Source: a virus. From it: a stretch of 64,000 bases of DNA. This document shows, one piece after another, positions 10,929-63,110 of the stretch (positions are counted from its first letter, which is position 1; every line of letters starts with the position of its first letter). The notes under the pieces are model-generated. The model was not told the DNA's origin, made no database searches, and saw only the letters and a list, made by a program, of their open reading frames with translations. The DNA is taken from positions 78,451-142,450 of IMG/VR virus record IMGVR_UViG_3300022751_000016; one strand, written 5' to 3'. The position numbers were made by a program, and so were the translations under genes.

Positions 10929-11292
10929 TAAATTAATATTTGACAAAAAAGGAGAATTTGCAATAAATTTTTCTTGGGAAAATGGTGATGATGCACATTG
11001 GATTGATTTTTCAGGTGTGGAGGTTTGTTCAGATTATATGGATGAGAATAATCCTGAATTCATCACTTTTGATACAGGTTATGGTATATCAAGTGATTGT
11101 TTTGAATTTAAAGATGTGAAAGAAGAAGATTTATTTTTTACAGGTTTTATAAAATGGGATGGTTGTATGGAAATACATGATTTAAACTACCATTTCTGTC
11201 ATAACAATGATATTTTAAAAAGAGTTACTGATTTAATATATAAGTCGGGTAAAGAAATAATGATAAATAAAGCTGATTTTTATGAAAGATAA
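10918..11292 (+). CDS. Acidic protein of unknown function (124 aa)
   Basis: Strongly acidic, beta-rich, with many Asp/Glu and aromatic residues and an HIH-type segment (WKDG... MEIHDLNYHFCHNND). No family is recognised. It overlaps the next gene by 11 bases. Confidence 0.55.
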   Translation: MKDSKLIFDKKGEFAINFSWENGDDAHWIDFSGVEVCSDYMDENNPEFITFDTGYGISSDCFEFKDVKEEDLFFTGFIKWDGCMEIHDLNYHFCHNNDILKRVTDLIYKSGKEIMINKADFYER

Positions 11293-11836
11293 TATTATTT
11301 TATGTTTGTGGATAGCTTATACTATCGGGTTTGGTTTATTTGGAGTGTATATTGACCAAAAGGCTGATGCTGTAGAAATGTTCGGTTTAAGCTGTCTTTT
11401 TGGTCAAATCTTATTGGGAATATATTTACTTTTAATTCTATTATTGAATACAATGGTGGGTAAAATAAATTATAGATTTAAAATACCTCCACCTAAAAGG
11501 TTTAAAAACAAGGTAACACCTATTTACAAATTAAATGTTTATGAAGGAACTAAAAACTGTTTCTCTATTAGTAAATATCAATTAGAGTGGGTAGATATCG
11601 ACTTTTTAAATTATAGATTTTCATTAATTCCGTTTAGTGCTTTATTCCAGCGTTACAAATACGTTCCTGTAGACTTCTTCTATGAATTCGAAATGGATTT
11701 AGATGGTGTGACAGATATTGGTTTATTGTGGGAAAGTGAATACAGTAAAGAGTTGGAACTTAAATCGGCGGCACAAAAAGAAAAAGACAGAGTAAATAAA
11801 CTTAATAAAGTGTTTTTAGAGAATTATGAACAATAA
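11282..11836 (+). CDS. Membrane protein of unknown function (184 aa)
   Basis: Two hydrophobic segments (about 4-22 and 31-56) precede a cytoplasmic part of about 125 residues with a basic Pro-rich patch (KIPPPKRFKNK) and a helical, charged end. The layout suggests an inner-membrane anchor with a soluble domain. Overlap of 11 bases with the next gene suggests coupling. Confidence 0.6.
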   Translation: MKDNIILCLWIAYTIGFGLFGVYIDQKADAVEMFGLSCLFGQILLGIYLLLILLLNTMVGKINYRFKIPPPKRFKNKVTPIYKLNVYEGTKNCFSISKYQLEWVDIDFLNYRFSLIPFSALFQRYKYVPVDFFYEFEMDLDGVTDIGLLWESEYSKELELKSAAQKEKDRVNKLNKVFLENYEQ

Positions 11837-46844: not shown

Positions 46845-49707
46845 TCAAGTTATTTATCAGATTTTCTTTCAAATTATTTATCATTATACTGTATTGTAAA
46901 TAAAAAGAACTGTTATTTTTTTCTCTTCCTGTTAAAGGTTGTGAACTTACTACTTCTTGTCCTGTTGTTGGGTCTGTGTAATATATATCTACCCAGAAAG
47001 GATTATTAGGGTCAGATGTAACTTTTGGCGCAGCTGTAAACTTACTGTTTAAAATAGTATTTATTGGCTGTTGATTTCTTTGGAAGAAGTCCGCACCTCT
47101 GTCTTGTATTATTTGATTTGCAAATTCTATTGTTGTTTTGAATGGAGACTTTGAAGGGTCAGTTTGTAATTGTGCAATCATTTGTTGACTCATCACGTCT
47201 GTTAGGTTTTCTGCTATATTCCTCACCTCTACATTTCTTTTTGCAGCACTAGTTTCAGGTAAAAATGCTTGAGGTGTTAATTTAATATCAGGATTAAAAG
47301 GGCTATTTTTCCAATCTTGTTGTGTTTCATTAAATGTGTCAGAAACTGTTGTTGGTAATGTGTCTACATATATTGATGAACGTTCTTGTCCTAATTTTGT
47401 TTTTTTAGTAAATCCAATTCTATATCCTTCTCCTTCTCGTTGTACTGTATAATCATTACTTCCTTCTGGAACTTCTGGTGCGTCTGAAGAATTTAAAACT
47501 GCTGCTCTTAAAGCTCTTGCTGTAGGTGCTTGCCCTTTATCCAGAGTAGAAAATGTATATGCTTTCTTATCACTTAGATTTTTACTATACCCTGCTGATT
47601 TTTCTTCTATTAGTTTTTTAATTCTTTCATTTTCTACATCAAATTGAGTTTTAGCAGCTATTCCTCCTGATAAGTCTCTACCTTGAATTTCTGTAATATT
47701 AGAATCTGTGTAAAATAAATCTCTATTAACTTCCCTCACATCTTCAAAACTTCTACTTAAGTCTTGAGCCACTAATGCATCCGTAGCTTGTCTTTCTCTT
47801 AATCTAGTATCTGCTATTTCTTGATTATTAAATACTCTATTGAATCCATATTCTAAAGCGTTTGCAACTGGCGCGATTACTTTTTTCTCTAAAGCTAGTG
47901 CACCTGTTAAAATATTTCCTGCATAAATTGAAGCTACTCCAGACCTTTCTTGTGTTGAAGTACTTCCTTTTATAGTGTTTAGAATTACCTTAGAATCTGT
48001 AGTTTTTAAACCTTCTAATTTTGCTTTTAATCCTGTTACAGACCTTTCATATGCAGCTCTTACATCACCTGTTAATTTATTATTATATTGTAAATTACTA
48101 CTTGCAAATTCTGCCATAACTCCATATTTTTGAGCAGTACTTAAATTGTTGAAAGAAGTTATATCTTTTCTCCCTAACATTGTAGCAGTTAATGGCATTG
48201 TAGTGGATAGATTTCTAGTATTTAAGTCGGAAGTTCCTTTACCTTGTAACATTTGATTAAAGATATCTGTTGTGGTAGATTGAATCCCGTCTGTTGTGGT
48301 AGATACTATATTTGCATATTGTTTTTGTGAGGCTTGGAAATCTTCCACTAAATTTCTATACTCTGCTGTATTTCCTTTTATCTTAGGGTTTTCTGCATCA
48401 AGATATAATTTATAATTCCACTTTTCTTTCTCATCTAACAATTTATAATTAGGGTCATTTTTAGCTAGATACAAATCTAAAGCTGCTGCCGAACGATGTG
48501 TAGCTTGTCTAATATTTGTAAAATCAGACTGTTCTTTGTCACCCTCTACTTGCACTACGTCTGTAGTTATTCCTAATGCTGCCTTTCTAGCTACATCCAC
48601 TTTTTCTTGACTCTCTGATAAAGACTTTTGTTTTTGAAAGTTAAATTTCTCTACTTCCAATGCATAATTTCTATCATCTTTGGCTATCTCATAAGCCATT
48701 TTATCAACATCAAACTTAGTTATAATATCTCTATCGTATTCTCCCGCAACATCTCTAGTAACTCTATTAGCATAAGTTTGATACGCATCATTAATAGAAA
48801 AATTTCCTGTTTTTATCTTTATATCATTATCGGAAATTGCTTTTTTAAGTGCAGTTATTTGCGGTTCGTATTGAGCAGCTTCTTCTGCTGACATTCCTTT
48901 CATTTCAGCTAATCCTTGCGCTAAAAAATTTTTATTTTTAGAGTTTTCATCAGAAAGTTGTTCAATCATATAGGCATTAGAATCTGTTCCTATAGTACGC
49001 CTAGCGTTTATTTGCATTTGCGCCATAGCTTTAGAATCTAAAGAGTTAATCAAATGACTTTGAATATCATCTGTTGAAACTCGTATACCAAATTTCTGTA
49101 TGTCATATGGATGTGCTAAGTCTCCTGCTCTCTGTGTACCTAAATATTGTTCCTTACCGTTTTTATCTATGTATGTTTGTGCGTTCTTGTTTAGTAATTC
49201 AGGAACATTTACATAATCATGGTATACCAAATTTCCCACTTTATCTGTTTCTCCACTCATAAAGCTTTGAACTCCTGCCATATTTAAAGCATCTTGATAA
49301 TTACCTTCGTCAAACCTGTCAGGACTTTTTTCTTTTAGTCTTTCAACATCTTTTGAAAAAGCTTGTATCTTTTGACTTTGGTTTATTTCATTCAAAACTG
49401 TTGGGTCTTGAACTATATTTTTTATTTGACTGTTAATTGCTCTGGCTACTCCTGATTTAGATAAATCTCTATCTCCTGAGTTATTTACAAGCTGTGTAAC
49501 AGCATCTAACTTACCTGCCAAGTATTCTTTACCTTTTTGACGTAAGTTTTGTGCTAAAGCCCCGTATTGGTCTACGGTATTTTGTATGGCGTTCTGAGCT
49601 AAATTATACTTCTCCTCTTTAGCCATTGCAACTTTAAACAGTATATCAGTAACATCTGTAGAAATTGTTGTACCATAATGGACGGGTTTGCTGAGATAAT
49701 TACTCAT
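46834..49707 (-). CDS. Virion core protein (957 aa)
   Basis: Long helical sequence with repeated Gln-, Asn- and Ser-rich regions, several coiled-coil segments in the first 150 residues and a DAYQTYANR stretch near residue 300; the C-terminal part is mixed. Such composition is typical of internal virion proteins of crAss-like phages. No enzymatic motif is seen. Its start overlaps the inserted GIY-YIG gene by 8 bases. Confidence 0.6.
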   Translation of the reverse strand: MSNYLSKPVHYGTTISTDVTDILFKVAMAKEEKYNLAQNAIQNTVDQYGALAQNLRQKGKEYLAGKLDAVTQLVNNSGDRDLSKSGVARAINSQIKNIVQDPTVLNEINQSQKIQAFSKDVERLKEKSPDRFDEGNYQDALNMAGVQSFMSGETDKVGNLVYHDYVNVPELLNKNAQTYIDKNGKEQYLGTQRAGDLAHPYDIQKFGIRVSTDDIQSHLINSLDSKAMAQMQINARRTIGTDSNAYMIEQLSDENSKNKNFLAQGLAEMKGMSAEEAAQYEPQITALKKAISDNDIKIKTGNFSINDAYQTYANRVTRDVAGEYDRDIITKFDVDKMAYEIAKDDRNYALEVEKFNFQKQKSLSESQEKVDVARKAALGITTDVVQVEGDKEQSDFTNIRQATHRSAAALDLYLAKNDPNYKLLDEKEKWNYKLYLDAENPKIKGNTAEYRNLVEDFQASQKQYANIVSTTTDGIQSTTTDIFNQMLQGKGTSDLNTRNLSTTMPLTATMLGRKDITSFNNLSTAQKYGVMAEFASSNLQYNNKLTGDVRAAYERSVTGLKAKLEGLKTTDSKVILNTIKGSTSTQERSGVASIYAGNILTGALALEKKVIAPVANALEYGFNRVFNNQEIADTRLRERQATDALVAQDLSRSFEDVREVNRDLFYTDSNITEIQGRDLSGGIAAKTQFDVENERIKKLIEEKSAGYSKNLSDKKAYTFSTLDKGQAPTARALRAAVLNSSDAPEVPEGSNDYTVQREGEGYRIGFTKKTKLGQERSSIYVDTLPTTVSDTFNETQQDWKNSPFNPDIKLTPQAFLPETSAAKRNVEVRNIAENLTDVMSQQMIAQLQTDPSKSPFKTTIEFANQIIQDRGADFFQRNQQPINTILNSKFTAAPKVTSDPNNPFWVDIYYTDPTTGQEVVSSQPLTGREKNNSSFYLQYSIMINNLKENLINNLNGQ

Positions 49708-50584
49708 TTGGCTTAAAAATTAAAGTTGTTTTATTAAGTTTCTTTCCTGTCAAATATTGAGACAATGTATTTTTACTAATACCTAATTGTCTAGAAGCTT
49801 CCGCACAAGAGCTATAAATAATACCTGTTGCGGTATCTAATACTTCTTTTTTATGTGGTCTTCTATCTGCTTCTTTTACTTGCATACCTTCTACATAGTC
49901 TTTTAAGTATACTAAGTTTGTTCTGTTTTTTGTTTTTCCGTTTAAAAATTCAGCAAGTCTTGACCTATTTATGCCTATTTTTTTACTCGCCTCTCTTATA
50001 GATACAAATGTTTCTAGAGTAATAACATCAATAATCGGCTTAGACCCATAATTATCAGCACCTTTTAATAATTTTCTATTTGGTTGAGGTACGCCCTTCA
50101 TTGGATTTATCTCCATATTAGCATATCTTTCTTTCATAATTATGCTCATACGTTGTTTAAATTCTTCAGACCTAGGTTTACCATATAATGGACAAAGCTC
50201 TCCCTTTCTTCCATACATATAGTGGTTTTCTTTATTTTTAAGACGTTCTTTATTCGCTCTGGATATTTTTTCTCTGCCCTCCTCTGACATTTCTACTACA
50301 CCATCTCCTCCGCTAGTTAGATTTACTAATGTACCTGATTTTAAATCTCTACGACCATACCAAGAAATAAGAGTTGTTTCTATCTCACAAGCCTCATCTT
50401 TAGTTAAACCTGTAGTTAATATTTGAACTTCATAATTAGGATGTTTTTTAACTAGACTTTTCCAATATCTATTCCTAGCCGTTCTATCTTTAGCTCTTTT
50501 TTTATTTTTACTTAATCCTACATAAAACACTTCTCCACATGGTTTTAAGTGTCTATATATATAATAATTTCGTTTTTCTTCCAT
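49700..50584 (-). CDS. GIY-YIG homing endonuclease with NUMOD domains
   Basis: The first 85 residues are a GIY-YIG nuclease (NYYIYRHL at 6-13, FYVGLSKN at 19-26, arginine RAKDR near 30-34, and a glutamate in ACEIET near 65). A NUMOD3-like region (NHYMYGRKGELCPLYGKP) follows. Two NUMOD1-like helix-turn-helix repeats appear at about 180-230 (IREASKKIGINRSRLAEFLNGK) and 245-290 (CAEASRQLGISKNTLSQYLTGK). The domains bind the target site. The gene lies inside the late operon between two virion genes, after a terminator hairpin. Confidence 0.85.
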   Translation of the reverse strand: MEEKRNYYIYRHLKPCGEVFYVGLSKNKKRAKDRTARNRYWKSLVKKHPNYEVQILTTGLTKDEACEIETTLISWYGRRDLKSGTLVNLTSGGDGVVEMSEEGREKISRANKERLKNKENHYMYGRKGELCPLYGKPRSEEFKQRMSIIMKERYANMEINPMKGVPQPNRKLLKGADNYGSKPIIDVITLETFVSIREASKKIGINRSRLAEFLNGKTKNRTNLVYLKDYVEGMQVKEADRRPHKKEVLDTATGIIYSSCAEASRQLGISKNTLSQYLTGKKLNKTTLIFKPNE

Positions 50585-53608: not shown

Positions 53609-54669
53609 TTAAAATATTCTTGTAAATTTATAGGGAATTCTGTAAATTTTGTTGCCTGTGGAAAATAATGCTCTCCTGTGTTTGGTAGTATTATCTGAGG
53701 TTCGCCTACGTCAGGAATAGTTAATAAAGGTATGTTTCCATAACCTTCTGTACTCATCGTATTGCCCTGTATTTCTGTAGGTTGCCAAGGAAAGTTTATT
53801 TGTCCTCTTTGACTTTTTATAATTCCACCTCCTCTGGCAATTGGAGCGTCTACGAAATTAGAAACTTCTACAAAAGTTTGTTCTATGCTTTTTTGAGTAG
53901 GAGCTGTTTGTTGCATTTGTGGTGCATTAAACTGTTGAGATATATTATTTCTTTGCTGATTCACCATTTCATCAATTAAATTCAACTCATTAGTTCTCTC
54001 AGTCAATATTTTCTCTGCTTCGACTTCTTTAGGAGTATCTTCTGATTTTGCAAAGGTAGTTCCTTCTTTACTTAAATCAAAATTGATTACTTTTTGTGTA
54101 ATTGGAGATTCTATGTTAATTACTTCTGCAACAGCCTCCACTGGCGGAGTATAAAAATCAGAATCTACTTTCTTTTTACCTCCTTCTATTCTTCTTGTGA
54201 GTTCATTATAAACTTCTTTATTAGTTCTAAGTTGTCCGCTTTTATTTAGAAAAACGCCTTTATTATATTTTAATTCTGCCTCTGTTGGGGTTACTCTCGC
54301 GTCAGGGTTAGATTGCAAAGACCTTAAAAATTTATTAGCTCCTCCCGCTCCTAAAAAGTGAGCAGCATACAATTCTGTACTATTTGGTTTCCTGCCTAAA
54401 GTATTTGTTATAGCTTGTTCATTATCTTTAGTAAATCTTTCTATTACTTTTTGCTGTTTCACTGGGTCATACCTGTCATCTGCTGTGTAATTTAATCCCA
54501 TCTTTTCTGTTACAGCTTTCCAAGTACCTTTTGTAAACTGATAAATTCCTGCCGCACTAGCTCCTTTTTGTGGATTTTTTATACTTTTCCCGCCTGATTC
54601 TGCTTGAGCCAGTTTTGCATAAAATGAAGGGTCTATTTCTCCAACTTGTTTGTACTTTAATAAACTCAT
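53605..54669 (-). CDS. Virion lytic transglycosylase (SLT-like domain)
   Basis: The first 150 residues carry a lytic transglycosylase domain: catalytic Glu24 in AQAESGGK, the ASAAGIYQFTKGTWK segment at 37-51 and ELYAAHFLGAGG at 99-110. The enzyme cuts peptidoglycan glycans, opening a path for DNA injection. The C-terminal half is disordered-like, Gln/Asn-rich, and may be cut or attached to the tail. The gene overlaps its neighbours by four bases each, as part of the late operon. Confidence 0.8.
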   Translation of the reverse strand: MSLLKYKQVGEIDPSFYAKLAQAESGGKSIKNPQKGASAAGIYQFTKGTWKAVTEKMGLNYTADDRYDPVKQQKVIERFTKDNEQAITNTLGRKPNSTELYAAHFLGAGGANKFLRSLQSNPDARVTPTEAELKYNKGVFLNKSGQLRTNKEVYNELTRRIEGGKKKVDSDFYTPPVEAVAEVINIESPITQKVINFDLSKEGTTFAKSEDTPKEVEAEKILTERTNELNLIDEMVNQQRNNISQQFNAPQMQQTAPTQKSIEQTFVEVSNFVDAPIARGGGIIKSQRGQINFPWQPTEIQGNTMSTEGYGNIPLLTIPDVGEPQIILPNTGEHYFPQATKFTEFPINLQEYFK

Positions 54670-55589
54670 ATTTTCTCTTGTTGTACTGTATTCTTTAAAA
54701 TAACCATGTGTTGTGAATCTGTAAACTCCATTCTTAACATAAAATAATTTCCTCTCATTCTCTCTAAATTTGCTTTTCCTTTAAAGGCTACTGCATGTGG
54801 ATTTATTATTTTATTTATTCTCACATTGTCATTATTCCATATTTCAACATTATTATCTTGGTTCTTTACGCGATTAAAGAAATAGTTAAATCTTTGATAT
54901 TCATCACTCACTGTTGAAATAATGTCTTGAGTATTGTCAGCATTAGTTTTAGGGTATTTAGCCGTTTGGGTTAAACTTTTTTCTAATTTAAGGTTTAATC
55001 TTCCTGAATTATTTGTAGAATTATAGACAGTTACTTCTGAAAATCCTATATTTTTATTTACAGCATAATCATACTCATTTTGATATCTTCTAGGTTCTAA
55101 TCCAATTTTAACAGATTCTAATACTTTTGTCACATATTGATTCTTAACAGGTATTTCTGCAATAAAAGGATACTTTTCACCGTAAAAAACACAATAAGAT
55201 TTATTTGTTAATAGATGACTATTCAAAGTTCCTGTCCAAGTGCTGTTTTTAAAGTAATTTAAGCCTGTTTGAAAGTAATTGTTATGGTTTACATAGTAAT
55301 CAGGTTTAAAACTAAAATAACTGCCCCATTGCCCTTCTGTCGGTTTATAAGATACTGTCCAACTAGCTTCTTCAAAATAATCAGTATTATTAAAATCTAT
55401 TTTTGTTTTTATTTGTGTAAACACTGGTTCTACTGAATCTATGCAACTACAAACTATGTTATCATCTATTAAGATTGGTTCGCAATTCTCAGGACAAACT
55501 ACATCGGAGATAATGTCTACACATGTGCATAGAACAATACCTCCTTGTGTTTCTTGTGTACATTCATTATTTTCGCAAGTGCAAGTCAT
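54666..55589 (-). CDS. Cys-rich tail protein (307 aa)
   Basis: The N-terminal 50 residues carry nine cysteines at 3, 5, 10, 21, 23, 32, 36, 47 and 49, in CTC, CTC and CSC groups. The rest is beta-rich with WTVSYKPTEGQWGSYFSFKPDYY near 78-100, a pattern found at the C-terminal side of crAss-like tail muzzle proteins. It is likely a separate subunit of the tail tip. It follows the giant muzzle gene by 13 bases. Confidence 0.65.
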   Translation of the reverse strand: MTCTCENNECTQETQGGIVLCTCVDIISDVVCPENCEPILIDDNIVCSCIDSVEPVFTQIKTKIDFNNTDYFEEASWTVSYKPTEGQWGSYFSFKPDYYVNHNNYFQTGLNYFKNSTWTGTLNSHLLTNKSYCVFYGEKYPFIAEIPVKNQYVTKVLESVKIGLEPRRYQNEYDYAVNKNIGFSEVTVYNSTNNSGRLNLKLEKSLTQTAKYPKTNADNTQDIISTVSDEYQRFNYFFNRVKNQDNNVEIWNNDNVRINKIINPHAVAFKGKANLERMRGNYFMLRMEFTDSQHMVILKNTVQQEKI

Positions 55590-55602
55590 CTTATTTTATT
55601 TT

Positions 55603-58600
55603 TTATTCGCATATTTCATCTAAAGCGGTAATAATTTGTGTAACTCCTCCGTTAGCAATCACACCTCCTGTAACTGTTGCTAAATTCTGTAATATAGGTT
55701 TAGTTGTAGAATTAACATTTAATAACATTACCTTAATTCCTTTGTCTATACAACTTTGTGTTATTGCAGCTATCTCTCCTGTAACGCTTTCATTAGTTTC
55801 TGCATCTGTTGCTATAATTACTAATTTAGATACTGTTGGTCTAAATGCACCAGCTATATCAAAATCTACAACTCTGGTTAAGCCGTATGTTGCAGGTTCT
55901 GGAGTATCTCCACCACTACCTAGCGGGAAAAAGGAGGTGTTTAAAACATCCAATTGACCACCAAAACTTAGTTCATTATTCAAATCAAATTTTTCAACTG
56001 TTGTAATGTACTTATACAGTTCATTTCCTATTGTTGACTTATAGATATGTTTTTGGTCGGATGGTAAGCTTGTATAACCTCCTGATGCTCCGTAGTTACT
56101 AGGAATAGCATCGGTATTCTCATCAAAAAGAGTTAATGATAATCTGTAATCTCCCTCTGATTTTTCTACAATTTTAGCTACAATTGTTGAGATGTTTGTT
56201 TTTAAACTATTAATTGTAGTTCCCATACTTCCTGTATAGTCCATTAAGAATGCTACGTCCATACCTGCATTACATGGAATAAAAGTGCTTTCAACTTTAA
56301 CTACTACATTCACTGGTTCTCCCATACAATCTCCTAATGTTGGTGTAATTATGTAAGTGGATGTTCCCTCTCCTGTAATTACTTGATTAATTGTACTTCC
56401 TGTTCCTGATACAGCTCCTGTTGTTCCTGAATTATTCACCGTCCATGAGAAAGTTGTACCTGTTTGTTCACTAGTTAATTCTATAATTGCCGCACTTCCA
56501 CTTTCAATTGTTAAACTGGTTGGAGTTACTACTAAATTTGGTGTTTCATTAACTGTTACTACTACATTAGTTGGAGTACCTTCACAACCACTCTCTATTT
56601 CAAATGGCGTCACTGTATAAACTACTGTTCCTCTTCCTATTAAAGTTTGATTTATACTCATTCCACTTCCAGATGTTGCTCCTGTTACTCCATCTTGAAC
56701 TGCTGTCCAATTAAATGATACTCCTGTTGATGTACTTGTTAATTCTATTCCAGTTTCTGCTCCACTACATACTATTTGCGATGGAGTTGTGACATCTGCT
56801 GTACATGTACACTCTGCTTCTGTCACTGTAGTTAAGGTACAGGTTTGTGCTTCGCTGTCATAGATATAACCGTCTGGGCATAAAGGTGGTGTCAATACTG
56901 TGCGTTCACACATATTAGTGATTCCGTTATATGTATATCCGTCTGGGCATGTCACTCCTTCTTCGCCGCAATCTGTATAAAATCCGTCCTCTTCTGAATA
57001 CTTTAGACAATCTGTATTTTTTACAATATAGTCCTTTTTAGTTATGAACACTCTATCGAAGCGAGCATCCCAACCCATAGATATGCCAATACCTTTAAAT
57101 TTATTATCTATATCTATATCAGGAAATGTTCTTAATATTTTGAATGGTAATTGTTCTCTAAACCAATTTTTTAATCCACTATCTCTTCCACCAATAACAT
57201 CTGATATAGGTTGTAAATCTCTTCCATTTTGGTCTAATTGGAATATTTTCCCTCTCTTAGCATCCACTGTAAAATGTCCGTAAGGTGTGCTAGACATGTC
57301 TGTATGCTGTGTTCCTGCGAATCCTAAATCTGTAGCTTTGAAGTCAATTGGTCTTTTTGTAAATATTCCACCTGTACCTATTTCTACTAAGCTTGGAGAC
57401 AATTCATTAGCTAAATTATCCACTGCATTAAATAACACTTGTTGATTTTCAAATCTCCCTAATATTTGAGCTGATTCTAAGTCTCTAAGGCTTATTAGCT
57501 TACCATATTTTTTAGGGAATTCATATCTATCTAATGGTCTATAAATCAACCAAGGGTCAACTAAATCATTCTCTGAGTTATCGGGTAGCGAATATATCAC
57601 TCCATTTTCGGAATCATCTTTCTTGTCCCAAACTTCTTTCGAATATGTTCTGTCTAAAATAGTGTATGGTGATTTGTAAACAGGTAAGGAATATACATTA
57701 TTATAATAAAAAGTGTTTGGTTCTTTTATTGAAACATTTTTCTCTTGTACCCAATTTAATAAATCTCCTGATTGAGGATAGAATTGGTCTTTAGGTTGTG
57801 TTAATCCATATCTAAAATTGCAGTTTATTTCACTCTCTACTAAGTAATTTGCAATACCATAATAATACAAATAAAACTTAGACGGTTTTTTAATATAGAA
57901 CTGCCCCCTATTAAAACAATCTAGTTCATAATTACTATCAATATCTGGAAATAATGCGCTGGATAAATTATCTCCTCCTCCATTTTCATAATCTACATAA
58001 TACTTAGCTTTTGCTATATTTTGATAGTTAGAATATTTGAAAGGAAGTTTGTCAGGAAGTCCAAAAGCTGTCTTATTGAATAACTGTATTTTTCTTTTAT
58101 AAGTAAATCTAGAAATAAAAACCGTTCCTCCATAAATTACTTCGCATGAATTATCCGTTGATAAATCTGAAAAATAGTTTGTCGTTAACCACTGTATTGA
58201 ATCTATAGTTCCATACTGAGAAGGAAGATAGTTTTTAAGTGTAAAATATGGACTACCTGCATTTCTTATAACTTCTGTATTATCACATCCATTTTGTGAG
58301 GCTATAGTTCTACTACCTGACTCAGAATTTGTTGTATTATTATCATAAAACTTATATGTGTCGTTGTATTCAAACTCGTAATTTCCTAAAGATGTAAAAA
58401 CAGAATTTTCTCTGCTAAAATTATTTATAGAAATAGGTTCTCCTGAATGTTCATCGGTAAATATAAAATTACCTTCTCTTAAATATTTCTTAACAGATAA
58501 AGCTCTCACATAATTTTCTTCATCTTGATTTCTCAAAAACTTGTTATGATATCCTTCCGAAGCAAAAACACTTGCAAATATTTCTGGTGAACCTAAATCT

Positions 58601-61600
58601 CTAATAGTTGTTAGCCACTGTAGTCTATATTTACCTATCCTCATAACAGAGCTTACACCATATCCTGCGGCAGCTATTCCTGCACCTACAGAACCTAAAC
58701 TAGCTCCACTAGATAATCCCGCAACAAACCAAGTTTGAGCTATTAATTCTGATGATTTTATAACTGCTTCTAATACAGCTTCTATTGTTGCCAAAGTGGT
58801 AGCTGTTCTCTTTGCATTATTTGATAAAATAACCCATCTTGAATGCTCTTCAACATCTTGAAAATATCCTCTTGAATTACCTAATTGATACCCTGACAAA
58901 ACCATTTCTGTTGGTAACGCAGGTTTAGAGTATATAAGTTCTGGTGAAATTAATGAAAATTTACTGTTAGAGTTTCCTCCGTTCGGATGCTCTATTAGGT
59001 TATTATTTTCTGTGTGGAGTAAATCTCTCCCTAAATCATTGTGCGGATAATTTGCATAAAATACGTCTTTATTCTTCTCTGTGTATTTGTACATGTCGTA
59101 TCCTAAAGCATTTGTTATAATACTTTTGTTTACAGAGTTATCTCCTTTTAATATTTCAAATCCTGTTATTGTATTTCTTTTTTCTTGCGATATTAAGCTA
59201 TTCCTAACGGCGATATCTAAGAATGTGTTAACTATATTATTACTTAAATGCACACCTAATGGAAAAATCAAAGCCTCTGAAAAATTAACAGTGTTTTGAA
59301 AGTTCATAAAGGGGCTCACCTTATTGTCAGGAAATTTAAAATGTCTGATAGGTTTACATTGTAAATTTGTATCTTCTTTTAAAGTGTAATTTATTCCATT
59401 TTTTGTTTGTACAAAATAATTTTCAAAATCTGTTCTTTGACTGCTTGTTAAATTAACTAAATCGGGACTTTGTATTTTTAACTTTGAAGAGTCATACAAC
59501 TCTGCATTGTCAGGGTATGTTGCCAAACTTTCCCAGTATGCCGATTTTCCACTAGCATAAGGAATAGGGTCACAATCATTTACTTCTGGTAATAAATAAT
59601 CACAATTCGCTACATAAACTTGTCTTTTATCAATTGTTATTCCCTCAAAATCCACAACTACTTGTGAAAATTCTATATCTCTGGTAGCTACAGAAAAACA
59701 TCCACATGGTGGAGCTGTTCTGTAAACTGTATTGTCTGCGCAGTTCTGACGTTGAATCAAAGGTACATCAATAGCTACATAGAAAGAACTTGAAGGAAAT
59801 CCTGCCAAGTCTTCCATTATAAGTAACTCACCAACTGTAGAATCTATTACTTTTGATGTCTGAATTGAAGTAGATACTATTGGAGAAGTTGAAGAACAAC
59901 TGGAATAAAAAGTGTATCTCAACTTATTCATAGCAGGTATATCGTCTATATCATCAGCACAAGTACTAGTTTTAGTAATTTCAAATACTAATTTCTCTCT
60001 GTTATTTCTTTCTATTTTAAACCATACAGCTCCCTTATGTAAATTAGTTTGAAAATCTGTCGCTGCTACAGATATTTTAGGTGTTAATAGTTCTGCAATT
60101 GTTATGCCTCCATAATAATTATTAAAATAAGGTTGAGGAGGAGATGCAGGGTCTAATCCATTAGGTACAACTTGCGCATATATGCAATTTTCATTTACAG
60201 GTATACTTGCTCTAAAATAAGCTTTTTGGTACTGATTGGGGAAAGGAAAATTGTCACAATCCATGTACTGCTCTTCAAAACTGGTATCTCTTTTGTTTAC
60301 TAATCTTCCATCACTGTTAACCTCAGTTCTGTATAAGACGCAATTGTCTGGAGCAAGTGTTGGAATATACTCACTTTGTGATTTTTCTGTGTATATCGAA
60401 TTCTCATTTATTACAGTTCCTATAGAATTGTTAGACGAAATTAATACAGGATTGTCGCACTCTCCTTCAAATAAAGGAGTACAATTATCAGCTATGTATT
60501 CAGAACTTAATGCATTTGCTACTTCAGCTAAATATTTATCTGAGTTAGGGTCTGTAACCTCCTCTAAATTATCGTTTATATAAGATTTTAAATTTGTATA
60601 GTTATCATCTAAAGAAAGTACATAACTATTTTGTGGTATTGTATATACAGGTTCAATTATACAGCTTCTTTCTGTTGATTCTGTTATTATTGTACCTCCT
60701 TCTGTAAAATCTGTACAAACTTTGTCTTGAGTGGCGGTATTATATACTTGCCATCTGTATTTTCTATCTGATTGACTACAATTTGGTGAGTTTTCCCAAA
60801 TAGACTTTAGATTTGTGTCATCTGTTTTTGTTTCACCAGATTCAATGTAAGTTAAATCTTCTAAATCTGTAGATAACGCAGGTCTTGAAACTAATGGAAA
60901 ATTGGAAGAATACCCCCCATCTTTATATAGAAATCTTATAGCATACGGTTGTACTTCATCTCGCATATTACCTTTATACTTAGATGTAGCTATAGCTGAC
61001 TTATATAAATTTTCATTTGCAACAGAACTCTGCCATTGCAGAAAAGCTCCCATTAAATTAACGACTGGTTGTAAATTGTCTTGTTTTTTGGCAGTTAACC
61101 CATATCTAAATAGATAATTATTTGATGAAACTACTCCTCTAGACTTTTCAAATTTAGTTTTTACTGCAAGTAAGTTATCAATAGTTGTTCTAGGCTTTGG
61201 ACTTACAATATCTGAATTAAGATTATTTTGTCCTATAGACGCTGAAGTAGTGTATAATATGGTATCGTCAGTGGTTGGGTGAATTCCTTCTACATAATAT
61301 GACTCTGTATTGGCTAAATTAACTCTTTCTATTACAATTACTTTATAGTACTTAAATCTAACATCTAAGTCTAAAACCTTTATTTTTATAGCAAAGCTAG
61401 TGAGTTGATTTAATTCTTGCTGGGTTAATATGTTATTATTTTCATCAAATATTGAAATAGGGTTTGTAGGTGTGGAATATTGAGTAATCTCATTGCCTGC
61501 AATATCACAATAGGCTATAGAGAAACTATAAGTTCCTTGCTTTAAATTTCCTCCTATTTGTAAAGTTTCTGGCTCTAATTTAGGTATCGTATAGTTTGGA

Positions 61601-62241
61601 GATAATAGTAATTTTTCAACATCTATACAAGTTGGATTTCTTAAATCTTCTCCGCATATTATTTCTCCTGTGTATTTATAATAATCAATATCATCAACAT
61701 TAAGATATCTGTCTGGATTTCTATTATCTGCCCAATATAAAACAGTTCCTAACTTTTCTGTTTTTATTTCTATATTGCGAATTGGAAAATTTATATTTAA
61801 ATTCAGGTCTCCATTACAGTTGTCATTAAGCATCTCTACATATGTGTGAGAAGGGACTTGTGTTTGATTTTCTAAAGGTTCTGAAAGTATTTTAAAATAA
61901 TTACAATCTTCACATTCTATTTCTGCGTCAGAGGTAGACTGTAAATTTTGAATATTTGAAACATATCCTATTGAAGAATAGCTAGATGTTGGGTTAGTAA
62001 GTATAAAATATGTCCTGTCGGAGTTTATATCACTTCTATAACCTAAAACCTTATATCCTTCTGGAAATCTTACTGTAAGTAAATTTGAAGGTTCGTTTAT
62101 TAAGTTAATTCTGTCACCTAAAAAATCTTCTGTATTACCATTAAGCATGAAAGAATATACCTTTTCATCTAAAAGATGTTCGGATATCTCTCTATTCATA
62201 CCCATTTTAGGTATATTGTTAGTTATTTGCTCTTTAGCCAT
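55603..62241 (-). CDS. Tail muzzle/stabilization protein with PKD-like and vWA domains
   Basis: The N-terminus has the family signature (KMGMNREISEHLL followed by NGNTEDFLG and LINEPSNLL), recognised from crAss-like tail proteins. The 1700-residue body is beta-rich. At about 1755-1812 come two Cys-containing repeats (CPDGYTY and CPDGYIY). Two PKD-like domains follow (about 1813-1989). The last 223 residues (1990-2212) are a von Willebrand A domain with a MIDAS site: DYTGS at 2001-2005, Thr2113 in GGDTPEP, Asp2146 in IIATDAE. vWA and PKD domains bind ligands on the cell surface, so this looks like a host-adhesion extension. Confidence 0.8.
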   Translation of the reverse strand: MAKEQITNNIPKMGMNREISEHLLDEKVYSFMLNGNTEDFLGDRINLINEPSNLLTVRFPEGYKVLGYRSDINSDRTYFILTNPTSSYSSIGYVSNIQNLQSTSDAEIECEDCNYFKILSEPLENQTQVPSHTYVEMLNDNCNGDLNLNINFPIRNIEIKTEKLGTVLYWADNRNPDRYLNVDDIDYYKYTGEIICGEDLRNPTCIDVEKLLLSPNYTIPKLEPETLQIGGNLKQGTYSFSIAYCDIAGNEITQYSTPTNPISIFDENNNILTQQELNQLTSFAIKIKVLDLDVRFKYYKVIVIERVNLANTESYYVEGIHPTTDDTILYTTSASIGQNNLNSDIVSPKPRTTIDNLLAVKTKFEKSRGVVSSNNYLFRYGLTAKKQDNLQPVVNLMGAFLQWQSSVANENLYKSAIATSKYKGNMRDEVQPYAIRFLYKDGGYSSNFPLVSRPALSTDLEDLTYIESGETKTDDTNLKSIWENSPNCSQSDRKYRWQVYNTATQDKVCTDFTEGGTIITESTERSCIIEPVYTIPQNSYVLSLDDNYTNLKSYINDNLEEVTDPNSDKYLAEVANALSSEYIADNCTPLFEGECDNPVLISSNNSIGTVINENSIYTEKSQSEYIPTLAPDNCVLYRTEVNSDGRLVNKRDTSFEEQYMDCDNFPFPNQYQKAYFRASIPVNENCIYAQVVPNGLDPASPPQPYFNNYYGGITIAELLTPKISVAATDFQTNLHKGAVWFKIERNNREKLVFEITKTSTCADDIDDIPAMNKLRYTFYSSCSSTSPIVSTSIQTSKVIDSTVGELLIMEDLAGFPSSSFYVAIDVPLIQRQNCADNTVYRTAPPCGCFSVATRDIEFSQVVVDFEGITIDKRQVYVANCDYLLPEVNDCDPIPYASGKSAYWESLATYPDNAELYDSSKLKIQSPDLVNLTSSQRTDFENYFVQTKNGINYTLKEDTNLQCKPIRHFKFPDNKVSPFMNFQNTVNFSEALIFPLGVHLSNNIVNTFLDIAVRNSLISQEKRNTITGFEILKGDNSVNKSIITNALGYDMYKYTEKNKDVFYANYPHNDLGRDLLHTENNNLIEHPNGGNSNSKFSLISPELIYSKPALPTEMVLSGYQLGNSRGYFQDVEEHSRWVILSNNAKRTATTLATIEAVLEAVIKSSELIAQTWFVAGLSSGASLGSVGAGIAAAGYGVSSVMRIGKYRLQWLTTIRDLGSPEIFASVFASEGYHNKFLRNQDEENYVRALSVKKYLREGNFIFTDEHSGEPISINNFSRENSVFTSLGNYEFEYNDTYKFYDNNTTNSESGSRTIASQNGCDNTEVIRNAGSPYFTLKNYLPSQYGTIDSIQWLTTNYFSDLSTDNSCEVIYGGTVFISRFTYKRKIQLFNKTAFGLPDKLPFKYSNYQNIAKAKYYVDYENGGGDNLSSALFPDIDSNYELDCFNRGQFYIKKPSKFYLYYYGIANYLVESEINCNFRYGLTQPKDQFYPQSGDLLNWVQEKNVSIKEPNTFYYNNVYSLPVYKSPYTILDRTYSKEVWDKKDDSENGVIYSLPDNSENDLVDPWLIYRPLDRYEFPKKYGKLISLRDLESAQILGRFENQQVLFNAVDNLANELSPSLVEIGTGGIFTKRPIDFKATDLGFAGTQHTDMSSTPYGHFTVDAKRGKIFQLDQNGRDLQPISDVIGGRDSGLKNWFREQLPFKILRTFPDIDIDNKFKGIGISMGWDARFDRVFITKKDYIVKNTDCLKYSEEDGFYTDCGEEGVTCPDGYTYNGITNMCERTVLTPPLCPDGYIYDSEAQTCTLTTVTEAECTCTADVTTPSQIVCSGAETGIELTSTSTGVSFNWTAVQDGVTGATSGSGMSINQTLIGRGTVVYTVTPFEIESGCEGTPTNVVVTVNETPNLVVTPTSLTIESGSAAIIELTSEQTGTTFSWTVNNSGTTGAVSGTGSTINQVITGEGTSTYIITPTLGDCMGEPVNVVVKVESTFIPCNAGMDVAFLMDYTGSMGTTINSLKTNISTIVAKIVEKSEGDYRLSLTLFDENTDAIPSNYGASGGYTSLPSDQKHIYKSTIGNELYKYITTVEKFDLNNELSFGGQLDVLNTSFFPLGSGGDTPEPATYGLTRVVDFDIAGAFRPTVSKLVIIATDAETNESVTGEIAAITQSCIDKGIKVMLLNVNSTTKPILQNLATVTGGVIANGGVTQIITALDEICE

Positions 62242-63110
62242 TAAATTTTAGGTAATTTGAATCTATTAAAATTTATTCTATTTTGTAATCTGGCTTTCCC
62301 TTTCCAACTTCCATCGGCTATTGTTTTGAATTTAGAAGCGGTCATGGCTAGTGAAAAATAATTATCTGCTTCTGCTTTATAGAAAGATAATAATTGTGCT
62401 GTAGCTCCTGGATTACGTCCATTACCTATCCACCCTAGAATCAGTTTGTATTTTACAAAATTTTCAAGGTATTGTTCTAAACTTAATATTTCAGGAATTA
62501 ATATCTCTCCGTCCTCATCTTCATCCAATCCGTAATACTGTAAGTAGACAAGTCCTGAATTGAAGTTAGTCTGTAAAGTATTTCCTGTAATGGATATTTC
62601 ATAGCAGTTTTTATCTCTAATATTCTTAGAAATATTTAAACAATCTGCTGATATACTATCTCTCTTCATACCTTTAACCACTTTAAGCCATTGAGCATTA
62701 TAACACACTCTTGCAGTTCCTGTTTTTAAAGTCACTATTTCCTCTATAATTTTTGCATTGCAACTCTTAACATATTCTAAACTAACGTCGTTAAAATAAG
62801 CTCCATGTTCTATTCTTTTTCTGCTGTAATATGAACCTCTGTATTCTTCATCAGAGCATCCTTCTAAAACTCTTCCAAAAGGCTCTACTTTTAAAGCTAA
62901 TTTAAGATTTTTAAAATTGTTTTCAAAAGTATATTGGGAATTTTTAATGTCAACAACTTTTTCGTGAACGGTTAGAATATTATTACCAAATCTCTTTAAT
63001 TCATTTGTTACCCATCTCAATATCGAACCTGTGTCTATATCCCCACTTTCTGCATATGTAGAAAAATCATTTTCAATCTCTGATATAAATTCACTAAGCC
63101 TTGTTGCCAT
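62241..63110 (-). CDS. Tail ring/adaptor protein (P22 gp4-like)
   Basis: The 289-residue protein has the layout of crAss-like P22 gp4-type ring proteins: an N-terminal helical half with a long loop, a beta-like central part and a C-terminal helix (LEQYLENFVKYKLILGW). Position directly before the muzzle gene, with a one-base overlap, agrees. It is expected to join head and tail. Confidence 0.6.
   Translation of the reverse strand: MATRLSEFISEIENDFSTYAESGDIDTGSILRWVTNELKRFGNNILTVHEKVVDIKNSQYTFENNFKNLKLALKVEPFGRVLEGCSDEEYRGSYYSRKRIEHGAYFNDVSLEYVKSCNAKIIEEIVTLKTGTARVCYNAQWLKVVKGMKRDSISADCLNISKNIRDKNCYEISITGNTLQTNFNSGLVYLQYYGLDEDEDGEILIPEILSLEQYLENFVKYKLILGWIGNGRNPGATAQLLSFYKAEADNYFSLAMTASKFKTIADGSWKGKARLQNRINFNRFKLPKI

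Follow-up and report, generated by a model that had tools for sequence, protein, structure and literature searches.

Sequence analysis of a crAss-like phage muzzle predicted to be encoded in two pieces, with a vWA-bearing cassette at the break

The window analysed here, 64,000 nucleotides corresponding to bases 78451-142450 of a 142,450-base IMG/VR virus record, contains a long tail gene that finishes in PKD-like domains and a vWA domain, which an earlier note took for the end of a phage tail protein. The locus raises the question of where in the tail such a cassette would sit and what it would do there. Little is established about host contact by crAss-like phages, and to our knowledge no binding site has been mapped on a muzzle. 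Docking on the cell surface has been proposed for the muzzle (PMC10172136, PMC10136315); in phi-crAss001 this protein forms a hexameric tail-tip nozzle with a seven-bladed propeller, and insertions are known to alter the muzzle surface (PMC10172136).

The locus belongs to the crAss-type muzzle, or tail nozzle, family, an assignment based on the homology of two consecutive reading frames in the same order, a match to the propeller fold (see below) and a ring protein neighbor. Thus, the profile phrog_37948 (2289 positions) matched residues 1-1775 of ORF1 over positions 1-1771 (E=0) and residues 57-298 of ORF2 over positions 2045-2280 (E 1.6e-51). Residues 1-1774 of ORF1 were 41% identical to the muzzle of Cellulophaga phages phi17:2 and phi4:1 by tblastn, and ORF2 was about 38% identical to the C-terminal end of the single-chain muzzles of phi17:2, phi4:1 and csAssE-Sib. 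The ORF at 62241-63110 matched CrAss_Ring_1 above its cut-off, the ring protein 1 gene thus adjoining the muzzle gene. The features of the locus are listed in Table 1.

Table 1. Muzzle reading frames, break and cassette (window positions)
Feature	Position	Strand	Remarks
Muzzle ORF1	55603..62241	(-)	2212 aa; N-terminal and main muzzle part, inserted cassette last
Cys-rich linker, CPDGYTYN / CPDGYIYD repeats	about 56797..57000	(-)	5' side of the break; from sequence
PKD-like domain 1	56539..56775	(-)	PKD_5 best stretch, residues 76-154 of tail fragment P0002, E 2.9e-15
PKD-like domain 2	56284..56538, boundaries approximate	(-)	Second PKD_5 stretch; beta-strands in the model
vWA / integrin beta-I-like domain	55606..56274	(-)	Residues 1990-2212; Cys at both ends; PF00092
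Spacer	55590..55602	(-)	13 nt, A-rich; between ORF1 stop (TAA 55603-55605) and ORF2 start
Muzzle ORF2	54666..55589	(-)	307 aa; muzzle C-terminal module as a separate chain
Cys-rich ORF2 N terminus, MTCTC...VCPENC...VCSC	55434..55589	(-)	3' side of the break; from sequence

Two PKD-like domains and a vWA domain were located by Pfam in residues 1813-2212 of ORF1, in agreement with what had been proposed for the final 400 residues, and the PF00092 match of the tail fragment (E 4.2e-6) was above its cut-off. The span first given to the cassette, 55606-56805, proved too short, since its true start lies farther upstream, in the Cys-rich CPxGYxY repeat. An AlphaFold model of residues 1748-2212, obtained with 16 sequences, showed a mean pLDDT of 84.9, with most of the vWA above 90, a low value for the Cys-rich linker, and a beta-sandwich for the first PKD-like domain (pLDDT about 90). 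When this model was compared with the PDB by Foldseek, integrin beta chains ranked first (E 3e-9 to about 1e-7, prob 1.00), and the integrin-like, MIDAS-bearing, adhesin-like pattern originally noticed was thus upheld by sequence, model and fold search. A search of PDB sequences with the vWA profile gave integrin beta-8 as the best hit, at a nonsignificant E value of 0.06.

The metal site residues D2001, T2003, S2005, E2115 and D2146 were common to all 12 aligned phage vWAs, and the predicted MIDAS of the window domain is complete, with DxTxS and further ligands. The earlier note had listed Asp2001, Thr2003, Ser2005, Thr2113 and Asp2146; the numbering was correct and the site is intact, but Thr2113 is not conserved among these domains, the conserved further ligand being Glu2115, which sits in a D-T-P-E sequence like the D-x-P-E loop of integrin beta and is kept in 12/12.

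The description of the cassette as the end of the protein did not hold for the muzzle as a unit. ORF1 and ORF2 match one family in order, and therefore the vWA is internal to the muzzle, placed between adjacent muzzle beta-strands (...RVFITKKDY and SWTVSYKP...) at a hairpin, with the gene break right after it; the conserved C-terminal module is the next ORF. From these alignments, the muzzle of this crAss-like phage would be encoded in two pieces, with the cassette at the break. Both parts form one ORF in phi17:2 and phi4:1 (2289 aa), csAssE-Sib (2257), Lbo-JY46 (1654) and Fpv1 (1783), and the phi38:1 homologue is likewise a single chain; the annotation of the phi4:1 muzzle, gp42, is based on MS/MS proteomics. 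The phi17:2 / phi4:1 muzzle resembles that of the window in that the same hairpin, hereafter the port, holds a long insert of some 309 aa, but this muzzle differs in being one ORF, and its insert is not detectably a vWA. Annotation ORF by ORF overlooks the C-terminal module, whose gene then stands alone as a 'structural protein.' Muzzles as such are already known; the split and the port appear to be new, and a search of the open-access literature, with subscription papers and preprints outside its range, retrieved no description of a split muzzle, a port or a vWA in crAss-like muzzles.

The port was placed in the propeller by profile-profile and fold comparison, which were informative where PDB sequence searches with muzzle proteins or profiles returned nothing useful. 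The family profile aligned to residues 917-1363 of phi-crAss001 gp44 (PDB 7QOK/7QOL; hhalign 97%, E 5e-11), and the port mapped to a tight hairpin near gp44 residue 1200, within the propeller region. A model of the one-chain muzzle of locus L017 (842 aa, mean pLDDT 78) showed strands at 320-327 and 332-338, then the vWA, and then strands at 612-617 and 622-627, which places the vWA within one blade, flanked by two of its strands. The PDB structures ranked first for this model by fold were those of the crAss001 muzzle, 7qok and 7qol. Although gp44 is of the same family by profile alignment and top fold match, it consists of a single chain whose hairpin at the port is tight, no split of it is described, and the length variation reported for the crAss001 muzzle is due to insertions in the crass and IG2 domains and not in this propeller hairpin (PMC10172136). 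In alpha-integrins, too, a seven-bladed propeller holds a vWA, placed between its blades 2 and 3 (PMC12422189), a likeness that we regard as analogy and not shared descent. Integrin beta-I and alpha-I domains share the fold and the DxTxS / DxPE / D metal site with the phage vWA, but identity is about 11-17% only, the insertion point is another one, and the phage has no heterodimer. Pfam found none of the integrin heterodimer parts (hybrid, PSI and leg domains), the vWA being accompanied by PKD-like domains only; 'integrin-like' applies to the vWA domain, not to the whole protein.

To follow the port in other phages, IMG/VR was scanned with alignments of the conserved parts flanking the break, which yielded 159 new loci; after removal of near-copies and addition of phage records and later loci, 117 nonredundant muzzles were classified. 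The loci were picked by matches on both sides, and the C-terminal part of the muzzle was the part examined. The cassette used as a single sequence against viral contigs, and in tblastn of phage records, retrieved no relative, whereas the alignment-based scans did. The muzzle was one chain in 84 cases, split at this hairpin in 15, split one hairpin later in 14 and split at both in 4. The later break (port 2) falls after ...NNFFYSG, and splits at both ports give three ORFs; three consecutive muzzle ORFs were seen in L062, L069, L075 and L077 (and L082), the breaks being occupied by FISUMP domains or by linkers rich in Thr. The strand order suggests that each port is the hairpin joining strands 2 and 3, in neighboring blades, and the two would then lie on the same face. 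On the tree of the muzzle core, the port 1 split label requires 8 changes, at least 7 of them forced by well-supported (starred) branches; each change may be a splitting or a refusion.

Insertions followed the same site. In the last ∼600 residues of the 84 one-chain muzzles, those of 20 residues or more occurred only at this port, the largest elsewhere being of 18. The nearest relative of the window muzzle, L008, is 75% identical to it in the core and forms a single chain; its Cys-rich insert of 92 residues resembles both ends of the break, as though a module had disappeared or were still to be acquired. In 14 of the 15 muzzles split at port 1, the conserved part of ORF1 leads into CPxGYxY-type repeats, and ORF2 begins with a Cys-rich element in most such muzzles.

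The end of ORF1 was highly variable among related muzzles, so that the conservation named in the earlier note as counting against its reading was not seen, and only some of them carry a vWA. A vWA was found at the port of 11 one-chain muzzles, by profile in L010, L013, L017, L024, L116, L209, L210, L212, L214 and L224 and by Pfam in L019, and also in split relatives belonging to another phage family (L176, L199 and L204). Other muzzles contained Fib_succ_major (FISUMP; L016 and L069), Lcl_C below its cut-off (L086), LRR (L031), DUF285 of the BspA type (L026) or a DUF5122 propeller (L090) at this position, and PKD/Ig domains were present in several port inserts. Such contents are typical of surface-binding proteins, and the port looks like a general socket for the exchange of host-contact modules. 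A single hairpin that takes unrelated adhesion domains in several phage lineages is a concrete place in which to seek determinants of host specificity. A conserved port module of ∼230 aa with a D[TV]TSM motif was observed in phi17:2-type muzzles (L002, L014 and L045); it matched no PDB sequence and nothing relevant in Pfam. Its reading as a divergent vWA, suggested by the DTTSM motif, was unsupported by hhalign or Pfam.

The arrangement that we consider probable is a muzzle of two chains in which the hairpin serves as a module port and presents to the host a metal-dependent vWA along with PKD spacers. ORF1 would make up the muzzle as far as the second strand of a late propeller blade, and ORF2 would take over from strand 3, both chains co-assembling in one hexamer and re-forming the blade by beta-sheet pairing. 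As the blade would need no covalent link at this hairpin, unrelated domains could be accommodated there. Disulfides between the Cys-rich ends would probably brace the break; such a clasp is plausible by analogy, since the tail barrel and fiber hubs of crAss001 are reportedly held by disulfides (PMC10172136). Some six copies of the two PKD-like spacers and the beta-integrin-like vWA would thereby be exposed around the tail tip. The vWA would most likely recognize a protein or glycan of the host surface in a manner that depends on Mg2+/Ca2+, and it may add a host contact before the gate opens and help to trigger ejection. The recurrence of a vWA with an intact metal site permits a direct test of cation-dependent binding. 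The crass domain, tail fibers or other proteins may instead be the main receptor binders.

Metal site residues are no proof of ligand binding, and some vWA domains serve assembly. The split could be real and the vWA/PKD cassette still serve to build or stabilize the tail tip, or to dock another virion protein such as a fiber, instead of acting as an adhesin. PKD/Ig-like and vWA domains in general also mediate protein-protein assembly, and in many related muzzles the port holds no more than 10-35 residues; however, the extreme diversity at this one site (vWA, FISUMP, LRR, BspA/DUF285 and DUF5122) is better explained by a diversifying host contact, and even distant vWAs retain the metal site. 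We therefore consider this explanation unlikely, albeit one to be kept in view. A broader extension of the two-chain reading is also rather unlikely: crAss-type muzzles may often be nozzles with two or even three chains, in which breaks at the hairpins of two neighboring blades allow host-contact cassettes with free ends to be exchanged, and certain lines might have evolved, independently of alpha-integrins, a metal-gated vWA within a seven-bladed propeller that senses host contact and opens the tail gate.

In a tree of 62 vWAs, the window domain grouped with cellular vWAs and those of other phages (100/100) and not with the other crAss muzzle vWAs; its branch is long, and its exact neighbor is therefore unsure. 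The muzzle vWAs required 3 changes on this tree, at least 2 of them forced, so that a vWA appears to have entered this port at least twice, in independent lines. Most of L167-L198 and L205-L207 are other phages with a kindred vWA at the C terminus of a ∼740-aa protein, the scanned example of which (L167) had no PHROG match. The 15 genome_contigs matches to the vWA were all Bacteroidota records, one of which (L233) looks like a phage contig, and this origin of the matches is compatible with the suggested acquisition from a Bacteroidota host; transfer may have run in either direction, and in the tree the cellular vWAs make up a separate clade next to those of phages. The other 14 matches were to a predicted lipoprotein vWA of ∼290 aa, 35-48% identical to the phage domain but a stand-alone cellular lipoprotein with no tail part. 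Its gene lies immediately downstream of an OmpA-family outer membrane barrel in 14/14 loci, a conserved pair exemplified by L234 (2082-4726) and 13 similar Bacteroidota loci and followed in L238 and L241 by an apparent LytTR-type two-component pair.

This closest cellular kinship, with its constant barrel neighbor, allows the idea that the phage vWA imitates a host vWA lipoprotein and binds its outer membrane partner, the adjoining barrel. We consider it improbable: vWA kinship does not fix the ligand, and we know of no interaction between such a lipoprotein and the OmpA-family barrel.

Although related phages encode one chain, it is most improbable that the broken frame is a pseudogene or a sequencing artifact, or that it is bridged by recoding or splicing into one long chain, given that the break recurs, with varying modules, in independent contigs of different samples, that entire ORFs lie between the halves in L014, L032, L039 and L062, and that the halves are separate genes in cultured phages. 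ORF2 has its own ATG in a frame different from that of ORF1, with a TAA in the ORF2 frame within the spacer just upstream, so that simple frameshifting cannot join the halves; a programmed frameshift was rejected on this TAA and on the intervening ORFs, and group I/II introns were rejected, as Rfam gave no match in the window or in six relatives. The cultured examples are Cellulophaga phi13:2 and phi19:3, whose two muzzle halves are termed 'structural' by similarity only. The muzzle-like gp120 and gp121 of phi13:2 (Pachyviridae) are adjacent genes, the first ending in adhesion-like sequence, as in the split muzzle of the window; phi13:2 differs in belonging to another phage family, in that no vWA was seen, and in an annotation that leaves the split uninterpreted.

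A diversity-generating retroelement was also considered and rejected, there being no match to the reverse transcriptase family PF00078 in the 142,450-base record, which is possibly incomplete. An HNH/AP2-like endonuclease ORF, assigned by eye, lies between the muzzle halves in L032, L033 and L036 (about 11181-11777) and is absent from the otherwise similar L031; it is a possible driver of module exchange. In the window itself, an ORF at 49700-50584 (-), by its sequence appearance a GIY-YIG-type homing endonuclease, lies between two virion genes.
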